This document shows, in pieces, positions 2,597-32,749 of a stretch of DNA of 56,989 nt (position 1 is the first letter of the stretch; every line of letters starts with the position of its first letter). Origin of the DNA: Thermomicrobiales bacterium (lineage in GTDB: Bacteria > Chloroflexota > Chloroflexia > Thermomicrobiales > CFX8); assembly GCA_023954495.1 (NCBI GenBank), contig JAMLIA010000015.1, positions 1 through 56,989 of the forward strand, in the 5' to 3' direction. The notes under the pieces were generated by a model that was not told the DNA's origin, ran no database searches, and was given only the letters and a program-made list of their open reading frames with translations. A program made the translations under genes and the position numbers.

Positions 2597-4831
2597 ATGA
2601 GCACGATCGACCTGCACGACGACACATCATCCCCGATCTCGGACCGTCTCCGCCGCCGGACGCCCTCGCTGCCGCGACGTCTCTGGCTGGTTGTCGCGCT
2701 GGCCGGGCTACTGGCCATCGCCGGCCTGATCGTCTACTTCACGACCGACATCGGCCGCGCGCGACCCACGCAACCTGCGGCGATCGTGCCCGATCTGCTG
2801 TTGTCGCAATCGTGGGATGCGAATTCCGGCGAGATGAGTAGCGTGCATGCGTTCTGGCCCAAAGACCAGACGGTGAGCGCACTGCCGGGCGTGCAATTGC
2901 AGGCTAACCCGATCGTCTCACCAGACGGTCGGCAGGTGGTCATCAGTGGCTGGTTGGTTACTGATGACACGGTATCGACCGTGCTCTATGCGTTCGACAG
3001 CAGCACAATGGCCGAGCAGTGGCATGCGGATCTGCTGAGCGAGCCGGTCGATCCCGACAGCAATCGGACGGTGTCGAAGGTCGCGATCAGCAGCGACCGG
3101 GTCTACGTCGCGAGCCATCGCTGGCAGTCGAGTGACCCGATCGAGTTGACTGTGCTCGACCGGGCAACTGGCGCGCAGGTGGCGCGAGTGGATCTGACGG
3201 TCGCTGATCCGGCCGCGAACCAGCCGAGCGTTTACATCAATCGGGCAGGCACCGAGCTGTATCTGCTATTCGGTCTCTGGAACGGACCGCCGGACGCCCC
3301 CACACCCGGCGGAACCGGGTACGTCCGCTTCGCGCTCCCCGATCTGCAGGAGCTCGATCGTCGGATGCCACTGTCAACCTCGCCACTTGCTGCCACTGGT
3401 TGGGGCGGTCTGCTCGGCACTGATACCCCGGTGCTTTACAGCACCATCAGCGGTGGTGAAACGGTGAGGCCGAGGGTGCGGTTCCTCGATCTGGCGGCCG
3501 GGCAGGAATTGCCGTCGCTAACGATCCCATTTACGAACCCGAGCGGTCTCTTTCAGCAGGGTATCTCACCCGATGGCACACGGCTCTATGTGTTTGATCC
3601 GGTCGCTGAAGAGCTGGCCGTCGTTGATGCTGCGACACGCACCATCGAGCAACATGTCTCCGTCGATATGACCGTTGGCGCGGTCGGCGATGCAACCGCC
3701 CAGCAAACAGCAGCTGGCGGCTACTTCTACTTCGGCGGCAGCCCTCTGCAGCTCTCACCGGACGGTGCCATGCTGTACGCCATCGGTGTGTCAGCAACCA
3801 ACGGCGTGAACGAAACACGTGGGGTACTGGTCATCGACACGCGCACCTGGCAGGTCGTTGATCGCTGGCTGATGGATACTCATCCGTGGCAGATGATCGT
3901 CGGTGGCGACGGGCATTACCTCTACGTGCAGACGGTTAGCTGGGGTGCCGATGGTCGCAACGAGTTCCGCATTGTCGATACGACGACCGGCCAGGACGAT
4001 TTCACGGTCGATCTGCCTTCCGGCACGATCTGGTCACTCGCGGGGCTGTATCAGGACACCTGGGGGCGCGCACCGGCGATCGAAGGGGTCGATCCGAAGA
4101 CAATACGGGAGTCGGCCTCGGGTAAAGTGGTGCCGTTCGCCAGGCTCGATATCGCCGTCAGCAAGGCGAATGTCATTTCCGGTGATCCGGTCACGGTCGA
4201 GGTGCGCTTCCTCGATCCGAAGTCTGGCGAGGTCGTGCGAGACGGGCAGGATGGCGTGCGCTTCGCGCCGCCCGACCACGTCCAGGCGACGTTCAGTCGC
4301 GGAGCTGACCGCTCGAAGGACATGACGATCGTCCTGGCGCAGGCGGAGTACGGCGTCTATCGCGGCGCGGCGCGGCTTCCCGGCGTAGGCGGCTGGTCGC
4401 TGACGGTGACGGCACGGACCTCCGGCGAGCCGCTGCGGCGCATCAACCAGCCGAGTGCCGTCGTCGTGCAACCGGCGGCCATCGGCAGCGACGGCAACCG
4501 CTACGCTCTCCACATCACGACCGACCCGCAGACGCCAGTGCGCGACGAAGAGTTCACCCTGTACGCGGAGTTCGTTGACGTGCACACCGGCGCACCGATT
4601 CCGGCTGGCGTCACGCTGCCGAACGGCGCGCCAGACACGATCGCCATCAGCCTGTTGCCGGCCAACGGCAGCGGTGTGACGACGACGAAGCTTCTGCCGG
4701 ATGGCGACGGCACCTATAGCGGGACAGCGACGGTCTGGCTCGCTGACGTCTGGCAGATCAACGCCAATTACGACGGTGATGGCTCCGATGGCTCGGTGCC
4801 GGTTGTATCGATCAAAGTGGGTGCGCCATGA
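2597..4831 (+). CDS. Membrane-anchored beta-propeller protein with C-terminal Ig-like domains
   Basis: A 744-residue protein beginning with a short basic cytoplasmic tail and one membrane anchor (about 29-52, LWLVVALAGLLAIAGLIVYF). An extracytoplasmic region of repeated blades follows (for example LSPDGAMLYAIGV, ISPDGTRLYVFDP), typical of YVTN/WD40-like propellers, to about residue 500. The last ~240 residues look like two beta-sandwich domains. An AGAGG-type ribosome site sits just ahead of the ATG at 2597. Its stop overlaps an ATG (ATGA) at 4828, and the next gene encodes a lipoprotein that also has a propeller, so the pair probably forms one operon acting at the cell surface. No catalytic residues were recognised. 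The role is probably structural or binding. Confidence 0.75.
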   Translation: MSTIDLHDDTSSPISDRLRRRTPSLPRRLWLVVALAGLLAIAGLIVYFTTDIGRARPTQPAAIVPDLLLSQSWDANSGEMSSVHAFWPKDQTVSALPGVQLQANPIVSPDGRQVVISGWLVTDDTVSTVLYAFDSSTMAEQWHADLLSEPVDPDSNRTVSKVAISSDRVYVASHRWQSSDPIELTVLDRATGAQVARVDLTVADPAANQPSVYINRAGTELYLLFGLWNGPPDAPTPGGTGYVRFALPDLQELDRRMPLSTSPLAATGWGGLLGTDTPVLYSTISGGETVRPRVRFLDLAAGQELPSLTIPFTNPSGLFQQGISPDGTRLYVFDPVAEELAVVDAATRTIEQHVSVDMTVGAVGDATAQQTAAGGYFYFGGSPLQLSPDGAMLYAIGVSATNGVNETRGVLVIDTRTWQVVDRWLMDTHPWQMIVGGDGHYLYVQTVSWGADGRNEFRIVDTTTGQDDFTVDLPSGTIWSLAGLYQDTWGRAPAIEGVDPKTIRESASGKVVPFARLDIAVSKANVISGDPVTVEVRFLDPKSGEVVRDGQDGVRFAPPDHVQATFSRGADRSKDMTIVLAQAEYGVYRGAARLPGVGGWSLTVTARTSGEPLRRINQPSAVVVQPAAIGSDGNRYALHITTDPQTPVRDEEFTLYAEFVDVHTGAPIPAGVTLPNGAPDTIAISLLPANGSGVTTTKLLPDGDGTYSGTATVWLADVWQINANYDGDGSDGSVPVVSIKVGAP

Positions 4832-4854
4832 GACGGGTAGGTGAGGGAGCCAGT

Positions 4855-6816
4855 ATGCGCAGATTCATCTATGTGGTTGTCGCGACGCTGCTGCTGACAG
4901 CCTGCGCCGGTGGCAGCGACGCGACCTCGACGCCGGAGCCGGTGAGTGAGGCGACGGCCGCGCCGACCGCCACCGCCACGACCGCACCCAGCCCGACCGC
5001 GACTGCGACGCAGGCTGCGACACCGACCGCGACCGCCTCGCCGACGGTCGGCCCTCCAACAGCGACCGCCGGACCGACTGCCACTCCGGCACCGCCGCTG
5101 ACCGAGCTGCAGTGCGGCGCTGAGATCGCCACAAGTGTCACGCTGGCCAACGACATGGCCTGCGATCCGATCGCGATCGTCGTGACCGGCGACAACCTCG
5201 TGCTCGATCTGGGCGGGCGGACGATCACCGGGCCCGGGCCGGGTAGCCGCACCTGGCCGATGCCGCGGTTCGACATCGCCGGGGTGATCGTGCGCGGCAG
5301 CGGCGTCACCGTCCGTAACGGCACTGTCTCTTCGAGCGGCATCGGCGTGCTGGTCGATGGCGGTAGCGCGGCGCGGATCGAGCAGGTCCAGACGCTCGGC
5401 AACTACTACGGTATCTATCTGTACGAGGGTGGCGGCAGCACGATCGATGGCAATGTCGTGCGCGACAACGTCTACGGCCTGCATTTGCAGCAGACGACCG
5501 GCAACACGCTGACGAACAACAACCTGTCGAAGCAAACGCACCACTCTCCGGGCGGGTACGGGCTGTATCTCTACAGCTCGTCGGGCAATCGGATCGAGGG
5601 CAACACGATTCAGGAGAACCTCAACTGGGGGCTGTGGTTCTCCGACTCGAACGACAACGTGATCGTCCGTAACAACATCATCGGCAACGACCCGCAGGTT
5701 AGCGACGACTCAGGCGGCAACATCTACTTCGATGAGGCGACCCGCGAGGGCAACTTCTGGTCCGACTACGCCGGGGCGGACAGCAACGGCGACGGCATCG
5801 GCGAGGATCCCTACACGATCGGCGGCCCCGGACGGCTCACCGATCCGTACCCGTTCATGGCGCAGGATGGCTGGCAGGGCCGCACGACCGCGACGCTCGG
5901 CGTGACAGAAGCCGCGCCGCCGTCGGAGAGTCCGCCGCGCGCCTACGTCCAGTTGGAGAACGGCGACATTGCGGCGATTGATTCGGCGAGCGGCACGCTG
6001 ATCGGCTCGTGGTCAGTTGGGGCTGCGCCGCCGAGCATGGCGACAAGCTTCGACGGCACGCGCCTCTACGCCATCGGCGGCGATGGCGAGGCTGCCAACG
6101 TGCTGGCGATCGACACCAGCAGCGGTCAGGTCGTCGAGCGCTGGGAGATCCCCGGCGCGCAGGTGGTCGCGGCGATGTACGACGGTGCACGGGTGCTGGC
6201 CTCCTCGCAGCAGGGGCTAACCGAGATCGTGCTGGAGACCGGCGAGCTTCGCCCGCAGCATGACGGCGCAGACGCGATCGCCATCACGCCGAGCTGGAAG
6301 CACAACCTGGCCACCGTCACCGCCGCAGATGGTGAGGTCAGCGTCGTCTACCTGCCGAATCAGCACGCGCCGTACTCGTTCGCGCTTTCGGGCGCGCCGG
6401 TGCAGGTCGTCGACAACCGACCGGGCACGCGCCTCTTCGCGCTGGTCGATGGCGAGGCGGATGTGCTGGTCGTCGATACCGAGCAGTTCGCCATCACCGA
6501 CCGCATCCCGCTCGGCGACATCGATCCGGCACACGCCCGTATGGCCCCGTCGCCGGACGGCACGCTGCTCTACGTCCTCGACACGGAACATGGCCGCGTC
6601 GTCGCCATCGATCTCGGAACGAAGAAGATCGTGGCGGATGCCGAGATTGATGCTGGGCTGGGCGTCGATATCTCGATCAGCGCCGATGGCGACTGGATCG
6701 CAGTCGCGGTCGCCGATGGCGGCAGCAGCCGGGTGGCTATCTACGACCACTCGCTGGCGCTGTATCACGCCGTCATGCTCGGGCGGGTGCCGGTCGCAAT
6801 CGTGTCGCCGCGATAG
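4855..6816 (+). CDS. Lipoprotein: NosD-like parallel beta-helix fused to a beta-propeller
   Basis: I place the start at ATG 4855 rather than 4828. A GGTGAGGGAG ribosome site precedes 4855, and the 653-residue product then begins with a lipoprotein signal (lipobox LLTAC, Cys17). Residues about 20-85 are a Thr/Pro/Ala-rich linker. The next ~250 residues are a right-handed beta-helix of the NosD / CASH type, with repeats such as GNRIEGNTIQENLNWG and a closing segment GNFWSDYAGADSNGDGIGED characteristic of that family. The C-terminal ~280 residues carry propeller-like repeats (SFDGTRLYAIGG, SPDGTLLYVLD). NosD proteins are periplasmic copper-handling or carbohydrate-binding helices. No nos genes are nearby, so a denitrification role is not supported. 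Surface binding is the safer inference. Confidence 0.8.
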   Translation: MRRFIYVVVATLLLTACAGGSDATSTPEPVSEATAAPTATATTAPSPTATATQAATPTATASPTVGPPTATAGPTATPAPPLTELQCGAEIATSVTLANDMACDPIAIVVTGDNLVLDLGGRTITGPGPGSRTWPMPRFDIAGVIVRGSGVTVRNGTVSSSGIGVLVDGGSAARIEQVQTLGNYYGIYLYEGGGSTIDGNVVRDNVYGLHLQQTTGNTLTNNNLSKQTHHSPGGYGLYLYSSSGNRIEGNTIQENLNWGLWFSDSNDNVIVRNNIIGNDPQVSDDSGGNIYFDEATREGNFWSDYAGADSNGDGIGEDPYTIGGPGRLTDPYPFMAQDGWQGRTTATLGVTEAAPPSESPPRAYVQLENGDIAAIDSASGTLIGSWSVGAAPPSMATSFDGTRLYAIGGDGEAANVLAIDTSSGQVVERWEIPGAQVVAAMYDGARVLASSQQGLTEIVLETGELRPQHDGADAIAITPSWKHNLATVTAADGEVSVVYLPNQHAPYSFALSGAPVQVVDNRPGTRLFALVDGEADVLVVDTEQFAITDRIPLGDIDPAHARMAPSPDGTLLYVLDTEHGRVVAIDLGTKKIVADAEIDAGLGVDISISADGDWIAVAVADGGSSRVAIYDHSLALYHAVMLGRVPVAIVSPR

Positions 6817-17800: not shown

Positions 17801-18408
17801 TGCAGTATGGTGTGCCACTGCAGGAGTTCGTCGACACCTTCACCTTCACGCGCTTCGAGCCGCAGGGCATGGTTGATGGTCATCCGAACATCAAGATGGC
17901 AACCAGCATCATCGACTACGTCTTCCGCGTCCTCGGACTGGAGTACCTGAACCGCACCGATCTGGTGCAGGTGCCGCCGCAGGAATCGGCGACGAACTTC
18001 GGCGAGATGCTGCCGCCGGAAGCCAAGTCCTCGGCAGCTCCGGTCGCGGCAGCCGCACCGACCCCGACCGCGACACCGGCCATCGCGCCGACGAACGGCA
18101 ACGGGAATGGCAATGGCCGCGCGCACGTGAATGGCAATGGCAACGGCCACAAGAACGGCAACCATGCCGCCCCGAAGGTCGAAGCCCAGCAGGCGCAGGC
18201 TACGACCGCCGCGCCGCAAGCCAGCGTCGCCACCGAACCAGCGCCCGCACCGGTGCTGGATGGCGGCGTCAGCCAGCAGCTCTCCAGCATGATGGGCGAC
18301 GCCCCTTCTGCGACGTCTGCGGCCACATCACCGTCCGCAACGGCGCCATACAAGTGCCTCAACTGCGGAACAGCCTCGGCTGCTCGTGGTGGAAGAGCGG
18401 GCAGATAA
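14830..18408 (+). CDS. nrdJ: Class II (adenosylcobalamin-dependent) ribonucleoside-diphosphate reductase
   Basis: A 1,192-residue reductase that makes deoxyribonucleotides using a B12-generated thiyl radical, so it needs no oxygen. Key residues are visible: first redox Cys215 (PHACFIQS), and the active-site triad in NPCSEYM with Asn422, Cys424 and Glu426. [10 protein letters not shown] and a late [20 protein letters not shown] are typical. After about residue 1,060 comes a low-complexity linker rich in Asn-Gly, then a zinc-ribbon tail. The tail is damaged: KCLNCG is in frame, but the expected preceding FCDVCGHITVRNG is encoded only in another frame, and the last residues (after KCLNCG) are also out of register. 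A GAGGAG ribosome site precedes the ATG. Whether the tail damage is real or a sequence error is open. Confidence 0.95.
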   Translation: [1192 protein letters not shown]

Positions 18409-18460
18409 TTCACCGATGGCAACTAGCGAATTGCTACAGACTAGGTTGTCATCGGTGAAT
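18408..18460. terminator. 16-bp inverted repeat just after nrdJ
   Basis: Arms 18408-18423 (ATTCACCGATGGCAAC) and 18445-18460 (GTTGTCATCGGTGAAT) pair over 16 positions with one G-T. The 21-nt loop itself contains TAGC-GAATT-GCTA. No T-run follows. It overlaps the nrdJ stop codon and marks the border of the AT-richer island, so it may be a terminator or a junction left by an insertion. Confidence 0.5.
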
Positions 18461-18489
18461 CCTCATGTTGTGACTTCGCCATAGCGGAG

Positions 18490-20203
18490 ATGCACGTTGT
18501 CTTACCAATATTTGTTGACGCAACTAACCTGATTCATGGGCGAACCGGCGAGAGGCTCAGAGCCTATTGCCTCGTTGTCTGGCGGGTCGTACCGACTGGG
18601 GCGAGCATCAGTCGAGGAGTTTCGCCCGGCGCGATGGTTTCACCGCTGGATGGGATGGCTTCTGGTCGATACGATTGGCGGAACTGCGTTTGTTCCGGAT
18701 GGCCTCTCTGGCTGGGAAATGGGTACTAATCGTGATCCAAGACGCAAGGCTGAAGACGACTCATCTAAAGCGAGCGCAACAAGCACTTGGTGATGATGCC
18801 TCAGTTATCTGAAATGACCTTTGTATTCGTGACTCCTCGGCGATGGTCATGAAGAAAGATTGGCAGAGGGAGAAGCGCCAAGACAAGATATTCAAGAACG
18901 TAGTTGCCTTCGATGTGATGATCTAGAGACGTGGGCTTGAGCAGGTTCCGGCTGTCTATCTTTGGGTTTCAGAAATAATCGGTACTACTATCGCCGGTTT
19001 GCAAACCATTGATGCGTTTTGGTCTGACTGCAGTGCGACGGAACCAGCCTTTGATTCTCAACTCATCTATTGCTGGACGAGGCGCTGCTCGCGACATTAG
19101 TGAACGACTGGCCGCAAAGTCGTCGACGATCCCATCTGTGGTGATTCACTTGATGAAGCACTCCGCGTTCTTGTCGCAGCCATTCAGTCGCTCCCTCAGT
19201 CGGAATCGGATATTGCGCGAGCGCGATCCGTCATTATTGACGATCCCACTGCGTGGAGGCGGATCTCACTTTCAGCGTCTCCACTCATTCTTATTCCGAC
19301 GTTCTCTAATGTGAATATTGGGACAGCCATAAGACAGGGACATCAAGTTGTTATTCCGCTTGGCAAGGAGGCTGCCTCATACTCAGATACGGTGAATCTG
19401 CCGCGACCAAATCGGCAAGCCGCGAAAGAGGTTGGTTCAACTGGGCCTGCCAGAAGGGCGAGCACGGGATCTTGCTAAGGTCGCGAGGCGGAGTACCCTT
19501 GCATTCCGTCGAAGCATTGCCTCCTTCCGGAACTTCAGCAGCCGCTTTGGGCGTTGCCGGAGTTTGCGGGGCATTAGTGCCTTCATGCTTGCTGGATCTT
19601 GGGATAGGACTAATGTTGCAGACCAAGAAGCGATCGTAGAACTAGGCGGCGTACCGTATCACGACGTAGAGCAAATACTCACCAGATGGGCGAACTCCTC
19701 AGACCCTCCTGTTCGTTGTACTGGATCGACATGGTATGTGGCGGACAGGTTGGACGCTTGGAGATTGCTCCGCCGTTACATTACTCCGACACATGTCGCC
19801 AAGTTTAGACAAACCGCACTTGCTGTCTTGGGAGTGGTTGACCCTGCGCTTGATCTTCCGCCTGATCAACGGTGGGCTGCTAACCTCGAGGCAAAAGACT
19901 TTGGTTCATTCAAGGACGCTTAGGACTGGGAATTTCGGAGACTCGCTCTTATGGTGCTGACTCTCAGATGATCGATAGCCGTCTTTACCAGGGTTTGGCG
20001 GAGACGGTGGTTAATGACTTGCTCAAGGTCGATCGACCGCTAGAAATGTGGCCATCTCTTTCTGACCAGTTACCCCTTCTTGCCGAAGCAGCTCCAGATT
20101 CTTTCTTGGCATGCCTTAACACAGTCATTGAAGAGTCCAAATGGCTGGAACTCATGTTCACTGATTCTGTTGCAAGGTCGACGTTGTTTACTTCTTCGGC
20201 GCA
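18490..20203 (+). pseudogene. 5' half of a large broken gene (nuclease-like + TFVFVTPRRW protein)
   Basis: No single frame is open, but fragments in alternating frames join into one colinear protein: AGWDGF, then GGTAFVPDGLSGWEMGT with DPRRKAEDD, LKRAQQALGDD, EMTFVFVTPRRW, KKDWQREKRQDKIFKNVVAFD, DDLETW, LEQVPAVYLWVSEIIG, SLDEALRVLVAAIQSLPQ, PLILIPTF, LGLPEGRARDLAKVARRS, FMLAGSWDRTNVADQEAI, LLRRYITP, VDPALDLPPDQRW and SLSDQLPLLAEAAPDSF. From memory this order recurs in long (~1,250-residue) bacterial proteins annotated only as hypothetical. The W-E-x-G-T...K pattern resembles a restriction-endonuclease-like core (inference). At least twelve frame breaks occur. Base composition is AT-richer than its neighbours. 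It continues beyond the IS at 21072. Confidence 0.7.
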
Positions 20204-20205
20204 TA

Positions 20206-21069
20206 GAGGGTGTTATGCACTTCCGTCGAGCAGCAGTCGCATGACACGGTGAGCAGCGAGTGTGGAGAATGCGACCAGATGCAGTCCCGCCACCGTCTCA
20301 GGTAAGCGCTCGTAATCCTTGGCCAGACGCTGAAACCGGCTCAACCACGCGAACGAGCGCTCGACCACCCAGCGCCGGGGCAGCAACACGAATCCTCGGT
20401 GCGCCTCCGGCAGCTTGACACTCAACCGGATGCCCCAGCCATCCGCTGCCGCTTCGGCATCTGCTCCGGTACCCCTGATCGACGTAGGCCAGCCCGATCG
20501 TGTCGCCAGTCGCCTCCTGTACCGCTGCCAGTTCCTCGACCTGTGCGCGATCCTCTACCGTTCGCGGGCGTGACCACCAATGCCAGGAACTCCCCCAGCG
20601 TATCGACCGCCAGGTGCAGCTTCGAGCCCTTGCGCTTTCTTGTGCCCGTCGTAGCCGCCTGCGTGCCGTTCTCGATCGATCCTGACAGCGTGCGACTGTC
20701 GAAGATGGCAGCCGTGTGGATCCACCGATTTCCCTTCCCAAGCCGAATCAGGGCCCGCAGGTCGGCCACGATCGCCTCGAAGCAGCCAGCACGGGAACCA
20801 GCGCTGGCTCTGCTGGTAGACGGTGTGCCAGGGTGGAGATCGTTGGGCAGCGTAGCGCCATGGCGAGCCGGTGCGCACGATCCAGCGCAGGCCGCTGAAC
20901 ACCTCACGCAGATCATGGTCACGTTGTGGCGCATCCTCGGTCATCAACGTCAGATACGGAGCAACGAAGTCCCATTCTTCATCGCTGATATCACTCGGGT
21001 ACGGCTTCCGCATGCTGTGTTCTCCATCCCACAAGGGTATCGAGAACTTCTACTCGTGTATAACACCTC
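20206..21069 (-). mobile_element. IS5-family-like insertion sequence, 864 bp, with TA target duplication
   Basis: The ends are inverted repeats: GAGGGTGTTATGCAC at 20206-20220 and GTGTATAACACCTC at 21056-21069 (reverse complement GAGGTGTTATACAC, one indel). TA flanks both sides (20204-20205 and 21070-21071). Deleting the element and one TA joins ...LFTSSAH to TGLLWAVENLLWSP in frame, which proves the insertion point inside the large gene. Size, TA duplication and the multi-frame DDE transposase fit the IS427-type group of the IS5 family (family knowledge; group call tentative). Confidence 0.88.
20213..21013 (-). pseudogene. Transposase of the IS5-type element, in several frames
   Basis: Reading from ATG 21013, the N-terminus MRKPYPSDISDEEWDFVAPY and GLRWIVRTGSPWR are typical of IS5/IS427 transposases. 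The product then changes frame several times: FDSRTL (first catalytic Asp), KGSKLHLAVDTLG, AYVDQGY (second Asp) and [11 protein letters not shown] (catalytic Glu) lie in different frames before the stop near 20213. All three DDE residues survive, but at least three frame changes are needed. One frameshift is normal for the IS427 group; three or more are not. Either the copy is dead or the sequence has indel errors. It cannot be expressed as a whole as given. Confidence 0.85.
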
Positions 21070-21071
21070 TA

Positions 21072-23110
21072 CGGGACTCTTGTGGGCGGTAGAAAATCTG
21101 TTGTGGTCCCCAGGTCACCTGAAGAGCGCCGCGCTTGCATTAGCTCGGTTGGCCCGTCTTGATCCTGGAGGCCAATGGAACAACCGCCCGATCAACACTC
21201 TCACAGATATGTTGCTACCGTGGTATCCGCAAATAGGTAGCGATGTCGATACTGAGCTTATGATCATTGACTTGATTCGATCAAATGAACCGGATGTCGC
21301 ATGGGACCTTATGCTGCGCCTTCTGCCCGGCGAGAGGACTCATGCTGATTTGGTGCATAGACCTGATTGGCGCGACTGGGCGTCTGATCCGGTTAAGAAC
21401 ATGTCGCCTTCCGAACAGACGGTCTTTCTTGAGCATTTGACCAAGAGGATCTTGGCAGATGCAGATGCTTGCCCGCCGAGATTGAAACAACTCATTCCAA
21501 GAATGCGTCGCTTGCCTTTGCAACAGCGAACAACCCTGCTGGAAACCCTCCAGGGCATCGAGATCGAGCGGTATGATGAAACTGATCGTGAGAGCATATG
21601 GCACTCAATCAGGGTGACTTTGAGTCGTCTCCGAATCAACTCCGCGGTTTCCGGCAGGCTTTTTCCAGAGGAACAGGAGATCCTGAAAGAACTGTTTCAC
21701 CATTGGGCTCCTACTGACCCGATAGTACAGCACGCTTGGTTGTTCTCGACTCGACCAGAGTTGCCAGAGCATGACGGTGATTGGGTCAATTACAAACATG
21801 TCGTTTCTGAGTCGCGAGCCAACGCCGTTAGTCAAGTGATGAATAGCGGTGGGATTCTGGCGATCCAATCGCTCGCAAGTCGGAGTGATGATCCATGGCT
21901 CGTCGGCTTCAGTTTTGGCCTGCAGAAGATCCTTGAAACCGAAGATGAAGGCTGGATGGCTAACCTGTTAGGTTCCGACGCTGATAGTGAGCGAAAGCTT
22001 GGAGAAGGTTACGTTGCTGGAAGCTTCGCCGCAAGGGGGTGGGACTGGGCTGAGTCAATTCTCGAGAGCGGAATAGCCCGGTGGTCAGTACGTCAACAGT
22101 CTCTTTTTCTCCTGAGCCTACCATCGGATCCGAGAGTATGGGACTGGACCGCTCGTCTCGGTGATGCTTGTGATGCGGAGTACTGGAAGGCGTGGTCCAA
22201 ATGGGTAGAGCGTCCCTCTGACTGCGAATATGTGATCAAAAAGCTAAATGAGCATAGTCGCCCGAGAGTAGCAATTCGGATTGCAGCTGGACATGTAGGG
22301 CAGGATGGGTTCTTGCTTTCCGCTTCAGACGTGATGTACATGCTTGAATGCGCAACTCTCGGTGAAGGGACGGTTGATTCTGTCTTGCCTTCTAGTTACG
22401 AGATTGAAGTCATCTTCGGATACATTGCCAAGCGCGATATTTTGAGTCAGCATGCGCTAATGCAATTGGAATGGCTATGGATACCGATTTTGACACAAGC
22501 AGATAATTACCATATGCATCTGCACGACGCATTATCCAAAGATCCGCAACTATTTGCAGACATGGTGGCAATGTTATACCCCTCAGTGCATGAGAGAGTT
22601 TGTGCCGCCGATGAGCAATCTAAGATAAATGCAGAGTATGCATATCAGCTTCTGAGCTCTTGGAATGTGGTTCCCGGGTCTGATGCTAGCGGTGTCATTA
22701 GCGAGAAGCTGCTGTCTGATTGGATAGGTGAGGCTCTTGCAATCTTAAGTAGGACTGGCCACTCTGCCGTTGGTGCTCAGCATATTGGTCGAGTACTGAG
22801 ATACGCATCATCAGACGATGACAGTATTTGGCCTCCGGCTGCCCTATATGTTATTGAACATAATAACAACCCAGATATTGAGCGCGGGTTCGAAGATGAA
22901 TTTATTAACAGTAGAGGCATAACGAGTCGTGGGCTGACTGAAGGCGGCGAGCAAGAGCGAAAGCTAGCCGAGAGATACGACTCCCTAGCTATGTCATTGT
23001 CATCAGCCTATCCCCGAGCGTCTGCATTGTTTCGGCGACTCGCGAGCAATTATGAACAATACGCCATGTATGAGGATATCGACGCAGAATTGCTCGAAGA
23101 CATCTTGTAG
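21072..23110 (+). pseudogene. 3' half of the same large gene: clean helical-repeat C-terminal region
   Basis: About 680 codons with no stop or frameshift, continuing the 5' fragment after the IS. Recognisable blocks: GLLWAVENLLWSPGHL, LARLARLDPGGQWNNRP, LPWYPQ, DVAWDLMLRLLPGE, RPDWRDW, EGYVAGSFAARGWDW, and a C-terminal GGEQERKLAERYDSLA. The predicted fold is all-helical with Trp- and Leu-rich repeats, like the sensor arms of large defence ATPases (inference). An uninterrupted frame of 903 codons runs from ATG 20399 in antisense IS sequence into this region, so automated annotation may call 20399-23110. The first ~224 codons of that frame are not part of the native protein. Function unknown. 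Confidence 0.7.
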
Positions 23111-24696: not shown

Positions 24697-25098
24697 GTGC
24701 CGGTGTACCGTGACCCACAAGTGAACTTCTACGTGCGTGATGTCGAGACGTCAGTGCGCTTCTACGCCGACCTGTTCGGCTTCGTCGAGACGTTCCGCAC
24801 GCCGGAGTCGGGCCCGCCTGCGCACGTCGAGCTGCGCCTCGGTGGCCTGATCCTCGGCCTCGCCTCCATCGAGGCTGCGCAGAAGGTGCATGCAATCCCG
24901 GCCGGCGAAGGTCCGGCCCGTGCCGAGGTCTGTCTCTGGACGGACGACGTTGACCAGTCGTACGCAGAGTTGCTGGCCAACGGCGCGCAGCCGATGACCG
25001 CCCCGCACGACTTCCTCGAAGGCCGCCTCCGCGCCGCCTGGGTCGTCGATCCGGATGGCAACCCGGTAGAGATTGTGGCGGAGCGGAAGGCGGAGTGA
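24697..25098 (+). CDS. VOC (glyoxalase/bleomycin-resistance) family protein
   Basis: A 133-residue protein beginning at GTG 24697, with GAAGGG a few bases upstream. It has the two beta-alpha-beta-beta-beta units of the vicinal oxygen chelate fold: VNFYVRDVETSVRFYADLFGF at the start and the second half with WTDDVDQSYAELLANG. The closing DPDGNPVEIVAE carries the usual Glu metal ligand. Possible roles include a small-molecule isomerase, dioxygenase or binding protein. It stands alone and is convergent with the creatininase gene beyond a palindrome-rich spacer. Confidence 0.88.
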   Translation: MPVYRDPQVNFYVRDVETSVRFYADLFGFVETFRTPESGPPAHVELRLGGLILGLASIEAAQKVHAIPAGEGPARAEVCLWTDDVDQSYAELLANGAQPMTAPHDFLEGRLRAAWVVDPDGNPVEIVAERKAE

Positions 25099-25164
25099 CG
25101 ATGCTGCGACTGCAACGGCAGCCTGCTCGACGAATCACCTTGACTACTGGTTGATGGGACAGTG

Positions 25165-25214
25165 TCATTTTCATGATTTCACGATCCTATAGGATCGTGA
25201 AATCATGAAAATGA
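25165..25214. repeat. Perfect 50-bp AT-rich palindrome, copy 1
   Basis: The 25 bases from 25165 (TCATTTTCATGATTTCACG...) are exactly reverse-complemented by 25190-25214, with the centre CCTA|TAGG and no loop. It lies between convergent genes ending at 25098 and 25498. Two related but imperfect copies follow at 25272 and 25393. The 25099-25497 spacer contains these palindromes and no gene. Confidence 0.85.
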
Positions 25215-25271
25215 AGTACGACGCGCAGCGATGATGCAGTGCATGACAAAGCAGATACGGCCAAACGTCCA

Positions 25272-25314
25272 AATTCATGATTCACGATCCCTAAGGAATA
25301 TGAAATCGTGAATT
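25272..25314. repeat. Related palindrome, copy 2 (imperfect)
   Basis: Begins AATTCATGATTCACGATCCC and closes with ATGAAATCGTGAATT. The arms pair with several mismatches, and the central CCTAAGG resembles copy 1 (CCTATAGG). Confidence 0.65.
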
Positions 25315-25392
25315 CAGGAATCTCGCCGATCGACCATGCGGCGCTTGCCACAGCTCACGCTCGTGCCAGGAACGTATCAGCGCTATGGAGTG

Positions 25393-25445
25393 AAATTCAT
25401 GATTTCATGATTTCATTTTCCTAAGGGATCGTGAATCATGAATTT
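25393..25445. repeat. Related palindrome, copy 3
   Basis: Outer arms AAATTCATGATT (25393-25404) and AATCATGAATTT (25434-25445) are perfect over 12 bp. The interior holds TTTCATTTTCCTAAGGGATCG, a degenerate version of copy 1 with a partial duplication of TTCATGA. Confidence 0.7.
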
Positions 25446-25497
25446 GTCGATGATCCACGGACGGTTTCAGCGTCCTGCCGATCTGATTGCCCGTCCG

Positions 25498-26289
25498 CTA
25501 CTCGTCGATCCGGCTCATCCAGGTGCCGCGTTTCCAGCCGCGCTTGTCGAGCTCGCGGAGGAAGGGGACGAGGATGGCGACCATCGCTTCAGTCATGGCC
25601 TGACCTTCTTCGGCGGAACCTGCTGCCGCATCGCCGGAGAAGCCCTTTGGCACGGTCCCCTTGAAGCTGTCGATCAGCAGGATCGGCAGATCCACGAACT
25701 GCGTCTGCTCGCTCGTGGCCAGATCGTGGCGCGTCGTTTCGGGATTGCTGTAGAGCACCATCGACATCTCAGTGCGTCCGGCGTGGTCGCCGTCGATGTC
25801 GAAGCGGCCGGCCAGCATCTCCCTGGCCTTGCCCATGACGCCATCGACCAGTGCAACTTTCATGTCGTGCTTCTGCGAGAGCAGTCGCGCCGCCGTCTCG
25901 GCCGGTGCCGGGTTGCCGTCGTGGGCCGGGACGATGATCAGCTTGGTGATGCCGTGGTGCAGCAGCGACTCGCCGATATCGACGATGACGCTGGAGAGCG
26001 TCTCCGGACGTAGCGAGAGGGTCCACGGCCAGGCGAGGTGGTGGTGGCTGACGCCGTAGGCCAGCGTCGGCAGCACGAGCGTGTTGCCCAGTTCCCGCGC
26101 AACCGCCTCCGCCCACGTCTCGGCGGTGAACGTGTCGGTGCCATATGGCAGGTGCGGCCCGTGGTATTCGGTCGCACCCAACCCCAGGATCGCCTTATCG
26201 AACTGACCCTCCTCAACCGGCCCACCCGTCATGCGCTCCAACCGCACTTCAGGTGACGTCGGACGGATTGGTTTGGTCGTGTCAGTCAT
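25498..26289 (-). CDS. Creatininase-family amidohydrolase
   Basis: A 263-residue metal-dependent amidohydrolase started at ATG 26289 behind AAGGAGGAG. Family metal-binding motifs are clear: Glu and His in ATEYHGPHLPYGTDT, then GVSHHHLAWP and the region VPAHDGNPAPAE. The family includes creatininase, mycofactocin peptidase MftE and FAPy deformylase. No mycofactocin or flavin-pathway genes are adjacent, so creatinine-like or cyclic-amide hydrolysis is the broad call. It lies downstream of the carbamoylase on the same strand but is separated by a strong palindrome, so it may be a separate transcript. Confidence 0.88.
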   Translation of the reverse strand: MTDTTKPIRPTSPEVRLERMTGGPVEEGQFDKAILGLGATEYHGPHLPYGTDTFTAETWAEAVARELGNTLVLPTLAYGVSHHHLAWPWTLSLRPETLSSVIVDIGESLLHHGITKLIIVPAHDGNPAPAETAARLLSQKHDMKVALVDGVMGKAREMLAGRFDIDGDHAGRTEMSMVLYSNPETTRHDLATSEQTQFVDLPILLIDSFKGTVPKGFSGDAAAGSAEEGQAMTEAMVAILVPFLRELDKRGWKRGTWMSRIDE

Positions 26290-26363
26290 AGTCTCCTCCT
26301 TCACATAGCTCAACGTCCGCGAAACACATTCAAAACGGCAGCCAACTCATCAGCATCAGGACA

Positions 26364-26391
26364 CCCCCTCTCCCAACGTTGGGAGAGGGGG
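26364..26391 (-). terminator. 28-bp G/C palindrome, likely terminator of the carbamoylase transcript
   Basis: A perfect palindrome (CCCCCTCTCCCAAC/GTTGGGAGAGGGGG) sits 23 bases beyond the carbamoylase stop. It is followed on the plus strand by GCCGGGGGGTGAGGGCCT. The same composite motif recurs at 39252-39291, also hard against a gene end. Minus-strand T-run is absent. Confidence 0.55.
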
Positions 26392-32714: not shown

Positions 32715-32749
32715 AAGTGAACCCCGGCCAGAATGGCCGGGGTTCACTT
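32715..32749. terminator. Bidirectional terminator between mscL and the secreted-protein gene
   Basis: A perfect 15-bp stem, AAGTGAACCCCGGCC / GGCCGGGGTTCACTT, with a 5-nt loop lies between convergent gene ends at 32688 and 32763. The A/T closing pairs give weak U-runs on both strands. Confidence 0.85.

Follow-up and report, generated by a model that had tools for sequence, protein, structure and literature searches.

Three related palindromes between two convergent genes of a Thermomicrobiales bacterium might be orphan copies, carried in the chromosome, of an origin-type module belonging to replicons that encode an AAA_25 (RepA-like) helicase, an explanation to which we give about an even chance. 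The arm of these palindromes is common to a helicase-linked cluster (C8) elsewhere in the same genome, and across many lineages such modules are strongly associated with the 3' ends of AAA_25 genes. The replicons that bear the module appear to be phages, prophages and integrated elements, and we infer an origin role for the module from its architecture: unit arrays in inverted sets, a symmetric centre and the position together make up what we read as the layout of initiator-bound origins. No rep gene was found near the copies described here, so these are most likely relics or transposed copies.

The window, by which we mean the whole stretch of DNA that was analysed (56,989 nucleotides), is contig C15 of a 3.36-Mb genome in 152 contigs (G000). 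Its three palindromes form a cluster at positions 25165-25446, within a 399-bp gap between convergent genes:

24697-25098, plus strand: flanking gene of the glyoxalase family, from ORF and Pfam (context only).
25099-25497, no strand: intergenic region with the cluster, 29% of it covered by 8-mers that are both direct and inverted (unit score 0.288, against an average of 0.011 over 2189 control windows taken from the viral and bacterial loci).
25165-25214, no strand: palindrome 1, a perfect 50-mer with two TTCAYGAT-type units per arm and the centre CCTATAGG (inverted-repeat search; RNA fold -34.5 kcal/mol, z -10.4).
25271-25323, minus strand: palindrome 2, imperfect, in reverse orientation, with the minus-strand centre CCTTAGGG (covariance model R1, E 2e-13, itself among the sequences of the model).
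25393-25446, plus strand: palindrome 3, also imperfect; its left arm contains an additional TTCATGAT unit and its centre is CCTAAGGG (model R1, E 5e-15, likewise a member of the model's own sequences).
25498-26313, minus strand: flanking convergent gene of the creatininase family, from ORF and Pfam (context only).

Inverted-repeat and ORF analysis confirmed what an earlier note on this DNA had reported, namely three related palindromes between convergent genes, one of them a perfect 50-mer. Palindrome 1, whose two 25-nt arms are 100% paired with a spacer of 0, is the longest inverted repeat reported in the 57-kb window by a search at the setting used. The AT-richness that the note saw against high-GC surroundings is also real, with 68% A+T in palindrome 1 and about 59-67% G+C in the neighbouring kilobases. 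The spacing, put at about 107 and 121 bp, needs a small correction, since palindrome starts lie 106 bp (1 to 2) and 122 bp (2 to 3) apart. The claim of a shared arm layout stands in so far as the elements are related, but palindromes 2 and 3 are imperfect, with an extra TTCAYGAT-type unit in one arm each, and in palindrome 3 CACGATCC sits on the right arm, as GGATCGTG, the left arm being without it. Over 55 nt these two palindromes are 89% mutually complementary, and so lie in opposite orientation. In the alignment of elements, copies of the 8-bp unit TTCAYGAT form inverted sets about CCTATAGG or CCCTAAGGG, with two in each arm or three in one of them. The 18-mer arm TTCATGATTTCACGATCC, searched with up to three mismatches, has four matches in the window, all within the cluster, compared with 0.02 in shuffled sequence. 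Chance origin of the cluster is excluded by the shuffles.

By Pfam comparison, none of the six window proteins near the cluster is a replication protein. A search of the genome at E<=1e-5 found no relative of the C8 helicase in the window, and there is no Prim-Pol match in the window or in the whole G000 genome. The two neighbouring genes, glyoxalase and creatininase, are metabolic, which argues against the toxin-antitoxin or partition operator that had been suggested for the site. BLASTN of the cluster against phages gave no match, and the exact two-arm pattern was found 0 times in bacterial genome contigs and 0 times in viral contigs. The sole Rfam match to palindrome 1, a microRNA family far under the cut-off, is meaningless.

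A covariance model built from five copies was used to scan the genome at E<=10, and all 20 matches are inside four clusters, located on C15 (the window), C8, C10 and C69. With each place counted once, the genome-wide number of copies, which the earlier note had proposed to count, is 11 palindromes in these four clusters: three in the window and eight in the other three (two in C8, two in C10 and four in C69). Clusters C8 and C15 have in common the exact 18-mer arm and the unit TTCAYGAT, and the arms in C10 and C69 are of the TTCCYGAT or TTCCCTGAT type around a similar centre. Arm sequence varies between clusters while pairing is kept, and 8 of 14 predicted pairs have changes on both sides in an alignment of 16 elements. 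Outside the C15 and C8 clusters, the word TTCATGATT was found at 8 places and TTCACGATCC at 18 places, with no palindrome by eye at any of them.

The spacers of C15 and C8 have no convincing likeness. At C10, the gap downstream of nrdR holds two palindromes and exceeds by about 609 bp its syntenic counterpart in G001, a genome of the same genus (the aligned ends are about 724 bp apart in G000 versus 115 in G001), so either G000 gained the DNA with the palindromes or G001 lost it. Given the lack of a helicase or Prim-Pol match in the window, the differing C15 and C8 spacers and the gain or loss at C10, the window array is best called an orphan copy. It has no physical linkage to an AAA_25 gene, and its tie to one runs only through the 18-mer common to C8.

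These same observations would also suit a self-spreading palindromic repeat (REP-like, MITE-like or Rickettsia-type) that inserts between genes and occasionally within them. The tie to helicases would then arise from carriers that are mobile elements, or from tolerance of insertions in replication genes. We consider this reading possible but doubtful. It draws support from the presence of four clusters in a single genome, their spacers being unrelated, from the intergenic location of the majority of G000 copies (judged by eye), from the additional 609 bp downstream of nrdR and from the crowding of the same intergenic gaps by other repeat families. Copies that lie in-frame in a protein linker in G026, a genome of another family described below, also favour it.

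Like REP elements, the palindromes are short and multi-copy, and some lie inside replication genes, as many intragenic REPs are described to do for replication and repair genes (PMC3733652). Unlike REP elements, they have no GTAG tag, much longer stems (16-25 bp) and a low copy number. None of the 11 G000 palindromes has GTAG within 10 bp of either end, which speaks against the self-spreading repeat. Because the REP paper also describes CGTC-tagged REPs, with 8-9 bp stems, 4-5 base loops and no known transposase (PMC3733652), we examined that tag as well. Five of the 11 G000 palindromes have CGTC no more than 10 bp from an end, a borderline excess in favour of the repeat (chance 0.197 each, about 2 expected, P 0.047); however, its distance from the end varies, and stems of 16-25 bp contrast with the 8-9 bp of CGTC-tagged REPs (PMC3733652). 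This type of REP is less cleanly excluded than the RAYT type, and its tag position and stem length do not fit. One Y1_Tnp gene (PF01797, RAYT) is above the cut-off in the order member G018, a point in favour of mobility, but none was found in G026 or G001, and G000 has one 60-position match under the cut-off. RAYT-driven REP mobility is disfavoured.

Among 61 genomes of the order, the exact unit pair TTCAYGATTTCAYGAT is present in G000 alone, and the broader centre pattern CCTWWRGGATCGNGAA has matches in six. Three of these six have palindromes, namely G000 itself, G001 (one palindrome) and G026 (two clusters in 2.9 Mb). In G005 and G012 the 16-mer matches are in coding-looking sequence with no palindrome by eye, and G014 carries the same 16-mer. 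An exact 19-mer is common to C69 and G026. The 15-mer TTCCTGATTCCCGAT common to C10 and G026 is not decisive alone, because 300 random segment pairs reached a longest shared word of 16 (mean 9). The earlier note had raised the prospect of a unique occurrence with no conservation in relatives. This is not the case, yet the exact arm was found in G000 alone among the genomes searched.

The same note had named an assembly fold-back as a concern. A fold-back can yield a perfect palindrome, and the assembly has 152 contigs, but the flanks differ on both sides, the sister copies are imperfect, and copies are located on four contigs and in other genomes. We thus regard this explanation as extremely remote. 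The other suggestion in the note, of a replication-type site or mobile-element footprint, is probably right, as the same arm is found at the end of the C8 AAA_25 gene and the type is tied to phage helicases.

The first palindrome of C8 overlaps the stop codon of a gene for a 431-aa AAA_25 (RepA-like) helicase (Pfam E 1.5e-29). At E<=1e-5 the protein has no other relative in G000, and it has matches in 5 of the 61 order genomes. In the wide sense, Pfam AAA_25 has matches in 14 of 14 control genomes, and therefore cellular ATPases of the AAA_25 fold exist. One of the G026 clusters lies inside an 873-aa Prim-Pol/PriCT_1/AAA_25 ORF, in the linker ahead of AAA_25. G018 encodes an AAA_25 protein about 50% identical to that of C8, and a TTCATC-type palindrome, TTCATCACTTCAC...GTGAAGTGATGAA, is found at the 3' end of its gene; a second palindrome, TTCATCATTTCACTCCCCTTAAGGGAGAGTGAAAATGAA, lies in the 5' region of that gene (by eye). 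The units are TTCATC in G018 and TTCATG in C8; thus closer helicases have similar units and the more distant one has different units. Weak C-terminal HTH matches in the G018 AAA_25 protein, under Pfam cut-offs, suggest a domain that could read the units. The linked helicases that were scanned match AAA_25, with no SF3 family among their Pfam matches. A tblastn search of plasmids with the C8 AAA_25 protein gave no match. Since the window arm recurs at a helicase gene in C8, and G026 and G018 have palindromes in or at such genes too, helicase relatives in viral and bacterial contigs were tested.

The G026 clusters (L086 8519-8707 and L087 9356-9675) are about 80% identical across palindromes and spacer, unlike C8 and C15. 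Further Prim-Pol matches in G026 are located at C4:4931-5437 and C2:6517-7024; the one at C2 is divided between two frames and contains a stop, and one of the two further matches is some 12 kb away from the C4 palindromes, an orphan cluster.

The first set of helicase relatives consisted of 52 loci from viral contigs and at least 32 from bacterial genome contigs. Among these 84 loci, which are matches listed by the searches, 13 palindromes were found within the ORF +-200 bp (179 kb) versus 9 in 465 kb of flanks; three of the 13 are one sequence (L128, L129 and L133). Hairpins with an MFE <= -35 are present at 20 of 73 helicase 3' ends and at 20 of 409 other 3' ends (p 9e-8; 73 of 77 loci, four being too short), again among the matches listed. 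A centre rule written from the first-set loci calls for a CC-TWWA-GG type centre and an arm score of at least 7. In the discovery set, the 37.5 kb between -150 and +350 of the helicase stop contain 11 centre palindromes and the remaining 559 kb contain 0, with 11 of 77 loci carrying one and 66 of 77 lacking it, among the matches listed. These 77 loci remain of the 84 after near-duplicate or truncated loci were left out (L129, L133, L157, L159, L173, L189 and L195), which add one palindrome near the stop, in the L194-related locus L195, and none far from it. Three similar pairs, L123/L127, L150/L184 and L191/L193, were kept in the discovery count.

With the rule frozen, new loci gave 8 centre palindromes near the helicase stop (36.0 kb) and 0 in 502 kb elsewhere; 8 of 72 loci have one near the stop and 64 of 72 do not, among the matches listed. 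New loci were drawn from the best 80 of 92 and the best 80 of 97 matches. Of the resulting 160 rows, 94 were used, with previously sampled contigs, repeated entries for one contig and matches to prim-pol alone left out, and removal of 4 that were too short and 18 duplicates left 72. The count retains relatives, in that L204, L219 and L251 are one apparent family and L293 and L298 another. Locus L323, outside the new set, has no centre palindrome anywhere. The centre and unit measures were both devised after the discovery set had been viewed, and the re-test on new loci covers the centre rule only. Over 1.06 Mb of viral and bacterial loci there are 0 centre palindromes away from a helicase 3' end, which also speaks against a self-spreading repeat.

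The window has the unit-and-centre anatomy, with a cluster score of 0.288 and a palindrome 1 that passes the frozen centre rule with a score of 23. The strict rule is also passed by three C69 copies and three G026 copies, and is failed by window palindromes 2 and 3, by both C8 palindromes, and by those of C10, G001 and G018.

The location between convergent genes and the strong RNA folding could indicate bidirectional terminators or mRNA-stabilising hairpins. However, no T-run of at least four nucleotides follows the window palindromes on either strand by eye, and none is found on either side of the 19 centre palindromes of the wider family (0/19). The stems are AT-rich, three copies about 100 bp apart would be unneeded, and copies lie inside or overlap coding frames in G026, G018, L180 and L266. 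We therefore consider this function very improbable, in agreement with the earlier view, based on AT-rich stems, that these are not ordinary terminators.

We used as a unit score the share of a region made up of 8-mers that occur there in both direct and inverted copies, with a cut at 10%. Among the matches listed, after length and duplicate filters, 42 of 139 helicase 3' ends reach this score versus 2 of 760 other gene 3' ends (Fisher 1.7e-34), and 20 of the 2189 other windows do so. The remaining 97 of 139 helicase 3' ends, about 70%, are under 10%. The centre motif is found at 30 of 139 helicase 3' ends versus 22 of 760 other 3' ends. Examples of units in both orientations at helicase 3' regions are GTGTCCG, GTTACGG, TGCGCTGCA and ATGTCATC. 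Beside the score of the window, those of C8 (0.17), C10 (0.10), G026 (0.285 and 0.40) and Wolbachia phage WO (0.25) can be set. Among 14 longer viral records, the highest-scoring window falls at the helicase 3' end in 8 and elsewhere in 6, two of which score 0 at that end; the 14 were chosen from 22, most of which had been picked for earlier-scoring loci. GC skew is a weak test for an origin here (Fisher p 0.012 detrended, 0.16 raw).

In phage WO (KX522565), a palindrome directly follows the ATPase gene gwv_1128 (AAA_25 by Pfam), and after it come AAGWTGGC units around CCTATATAGAGG (CCTCCTATATAGAGG). At the threshold used for WO, no palindrome was found after the AAA_25 match in phage WOVitA2. 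Phages MW202627 and MW202444 were matched via the prim-pol end of the query alone (residues 2-264 and 16-257). No palindrome of the centre type was found in MW202627, and the single rule match in MW202444 is far from the repA gene. Among prim-pol-only viral ORFs, 1 of 7 that could be tested has a unit score (10 were given, 3 being too short). The origin passages of a phage WO genomics paper concern the Wolbachia chromosome (PMC9203015). No description of the module at AAA_25 genes was found among the matches listed from the open-access literature, subscription papers being outside that search.

Several known origins resemble the module. The PICI origin is described as lying immediately 3' of rep, with two iteron sets that flank an AT-rich region, and its authors state that this layout is common to no other known bacterial element (PMC6092414). 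As in PICI and SaPI elements, the module is found immediately 3' of an initiator or helicase gene and seems to have two sets of short iteron-like units around a centre (PMC6092414, PMC7581432). It differs in that the helicase is AAA_25 (RepA-like) and found in phage and prophage loci, in that the centre is a short CCTWWAGG hairpin with no long AT-rich stretch, and in that the window copies are without rep. The position directly 3' of a helicase gene is seen for the C8 cluster and the wider family and is not seen for the window copies, which have inverted 8-bp unit arrays around CCTATAGG without a long AT-rich core. SGI1 is also reported to have an iteron origin downstream of rep (PMC7433901).

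Plasmid pRN1 carries a stem-loop of about 100 nt that starts 54 bp after its prim-pol/helicase gene and is required for replication, and in stem-loops of this type the structure is described as conserved and the sequence as not (PMC4234260). The module is like those of pRN1 and BIP-1-like phages in that a stem-loop, whose integrity is required there, lies just downstream of a prim-pol/helicase gene (PMC4234260). It is unlike pRN1, which has an SF3 helicase and one stem-loop of about 100 nt with a large loop, in having an AAA_25 helicase and small palindromes of repeated units. RSF1010 RepA is described as unwinding DNA and so exposing short stem-loops where primers form (PMC4234260). By description, the paired hairpins of RSF1010 oriV (ssiA/ssiB, with the RepA helicase) are similar, whereas its iterons are bound by a separate protein, RepC. 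Palindrome clusters are also found on mobile elements such as the Wolbachia plasmid pWCP, whose extragenic palindromes are stated to have an unclear role, and the Rickettsia plasmid pRM, both compared by description only (PMC6401122).

On the model of an origin-type module, short iteron-like units (here TTCAYGAT, 8 bp) would form inverted arrays around a CCTWWAGG-type centre, normally located at the 3' terminus of the helicase gene or shortly beyond it. The C-terminal winged-helix domain of the helicase might bind the units and the centre might open or be extruded. The helicase would then load at the centre and replication would be primed, as has been proposed for PICI/SaPI and pRN1 origins. 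The window copies could act in this way only if a matching Rep were supplied in trans.

Bacteria perform template-switch correction between palindrome arms. The palindromes might be functionless relics of decayed integrated elements whose palindromy is kept by such arm-to-arm correction. No rep gene was found nearby and a perfect palindrome stands beside imperfect ones of the same family, which favours this reading. However, a decaying prophage would be expected to leave some other genes, and none was seen around the three orphan clusters, where part of the ORFs were checked against family libraries. We judge it unlikely as a full explanation, and it is compatible with the origin-type module as an account of the present state of the window copies.

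A broader proposal, which we hold to be quite improbable, is that AAA_25 replicons, phage WO included, use an undescribed class of origin, and that rep-less arrays bind incoming Rep as decoys or passive origins. As a decoy, a rep-less array would starve an invader of initiator; as a passive origin, it would fire on the entry of a helper element. If the more general reading as an origin-type module is right, one simple rule, unit arrays and a CCTWWAGG palindrome after a RepA-like AAA_25 gene, would predict the origin of many phages and integrated elements, and the prediction would cover phage WO and become testable. An origin layout regarded in the PICI paper as exclusive to PICIs would then extend to AAA_25 elements, and orphan origin copies would be shown to persist in bacterial chromosomes.

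Other repeats and unusual regions were also noticed. In C69, a GmrSD_N (DUF262) gene lies together with a second ORF between two oppositely oriented palindromes (L069 5133-7390), and a cassette-like insertion is possible; further palindromes flank an acetyltransferase-like gene (4232-4895). Palindromes of the GTAGGGGCGTATTGCATACGCCC type, which are GTAG-tagged and which we take to be REP-like, are located at L048 10420-10640 and at about L069 4975, beside the C8 and C69 clusters. In the window, a region of low G+C (0.49-0.60) at 18400-23110, which contains an ORF of up to 903 aa without a Pfam match, has a foreign appearance. A perfect CCCCCTCTCCCAACGTTGGGAGAGGGGG palindrome is found at 26364-26391, and the akin hairpins CCCTCTCCCAACGTTGGGAG and CCCTCTCCCCACGGGAGAGGG, at about L069 4185 and at L048 10729-10757, represent another repeat family. 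Window positions 32715-32749 form a perfect hairpin with 16-bp arms, AAGTGAACCCCGGCCA and TGGCCGGGGTTCACTT, and a loop of 3.
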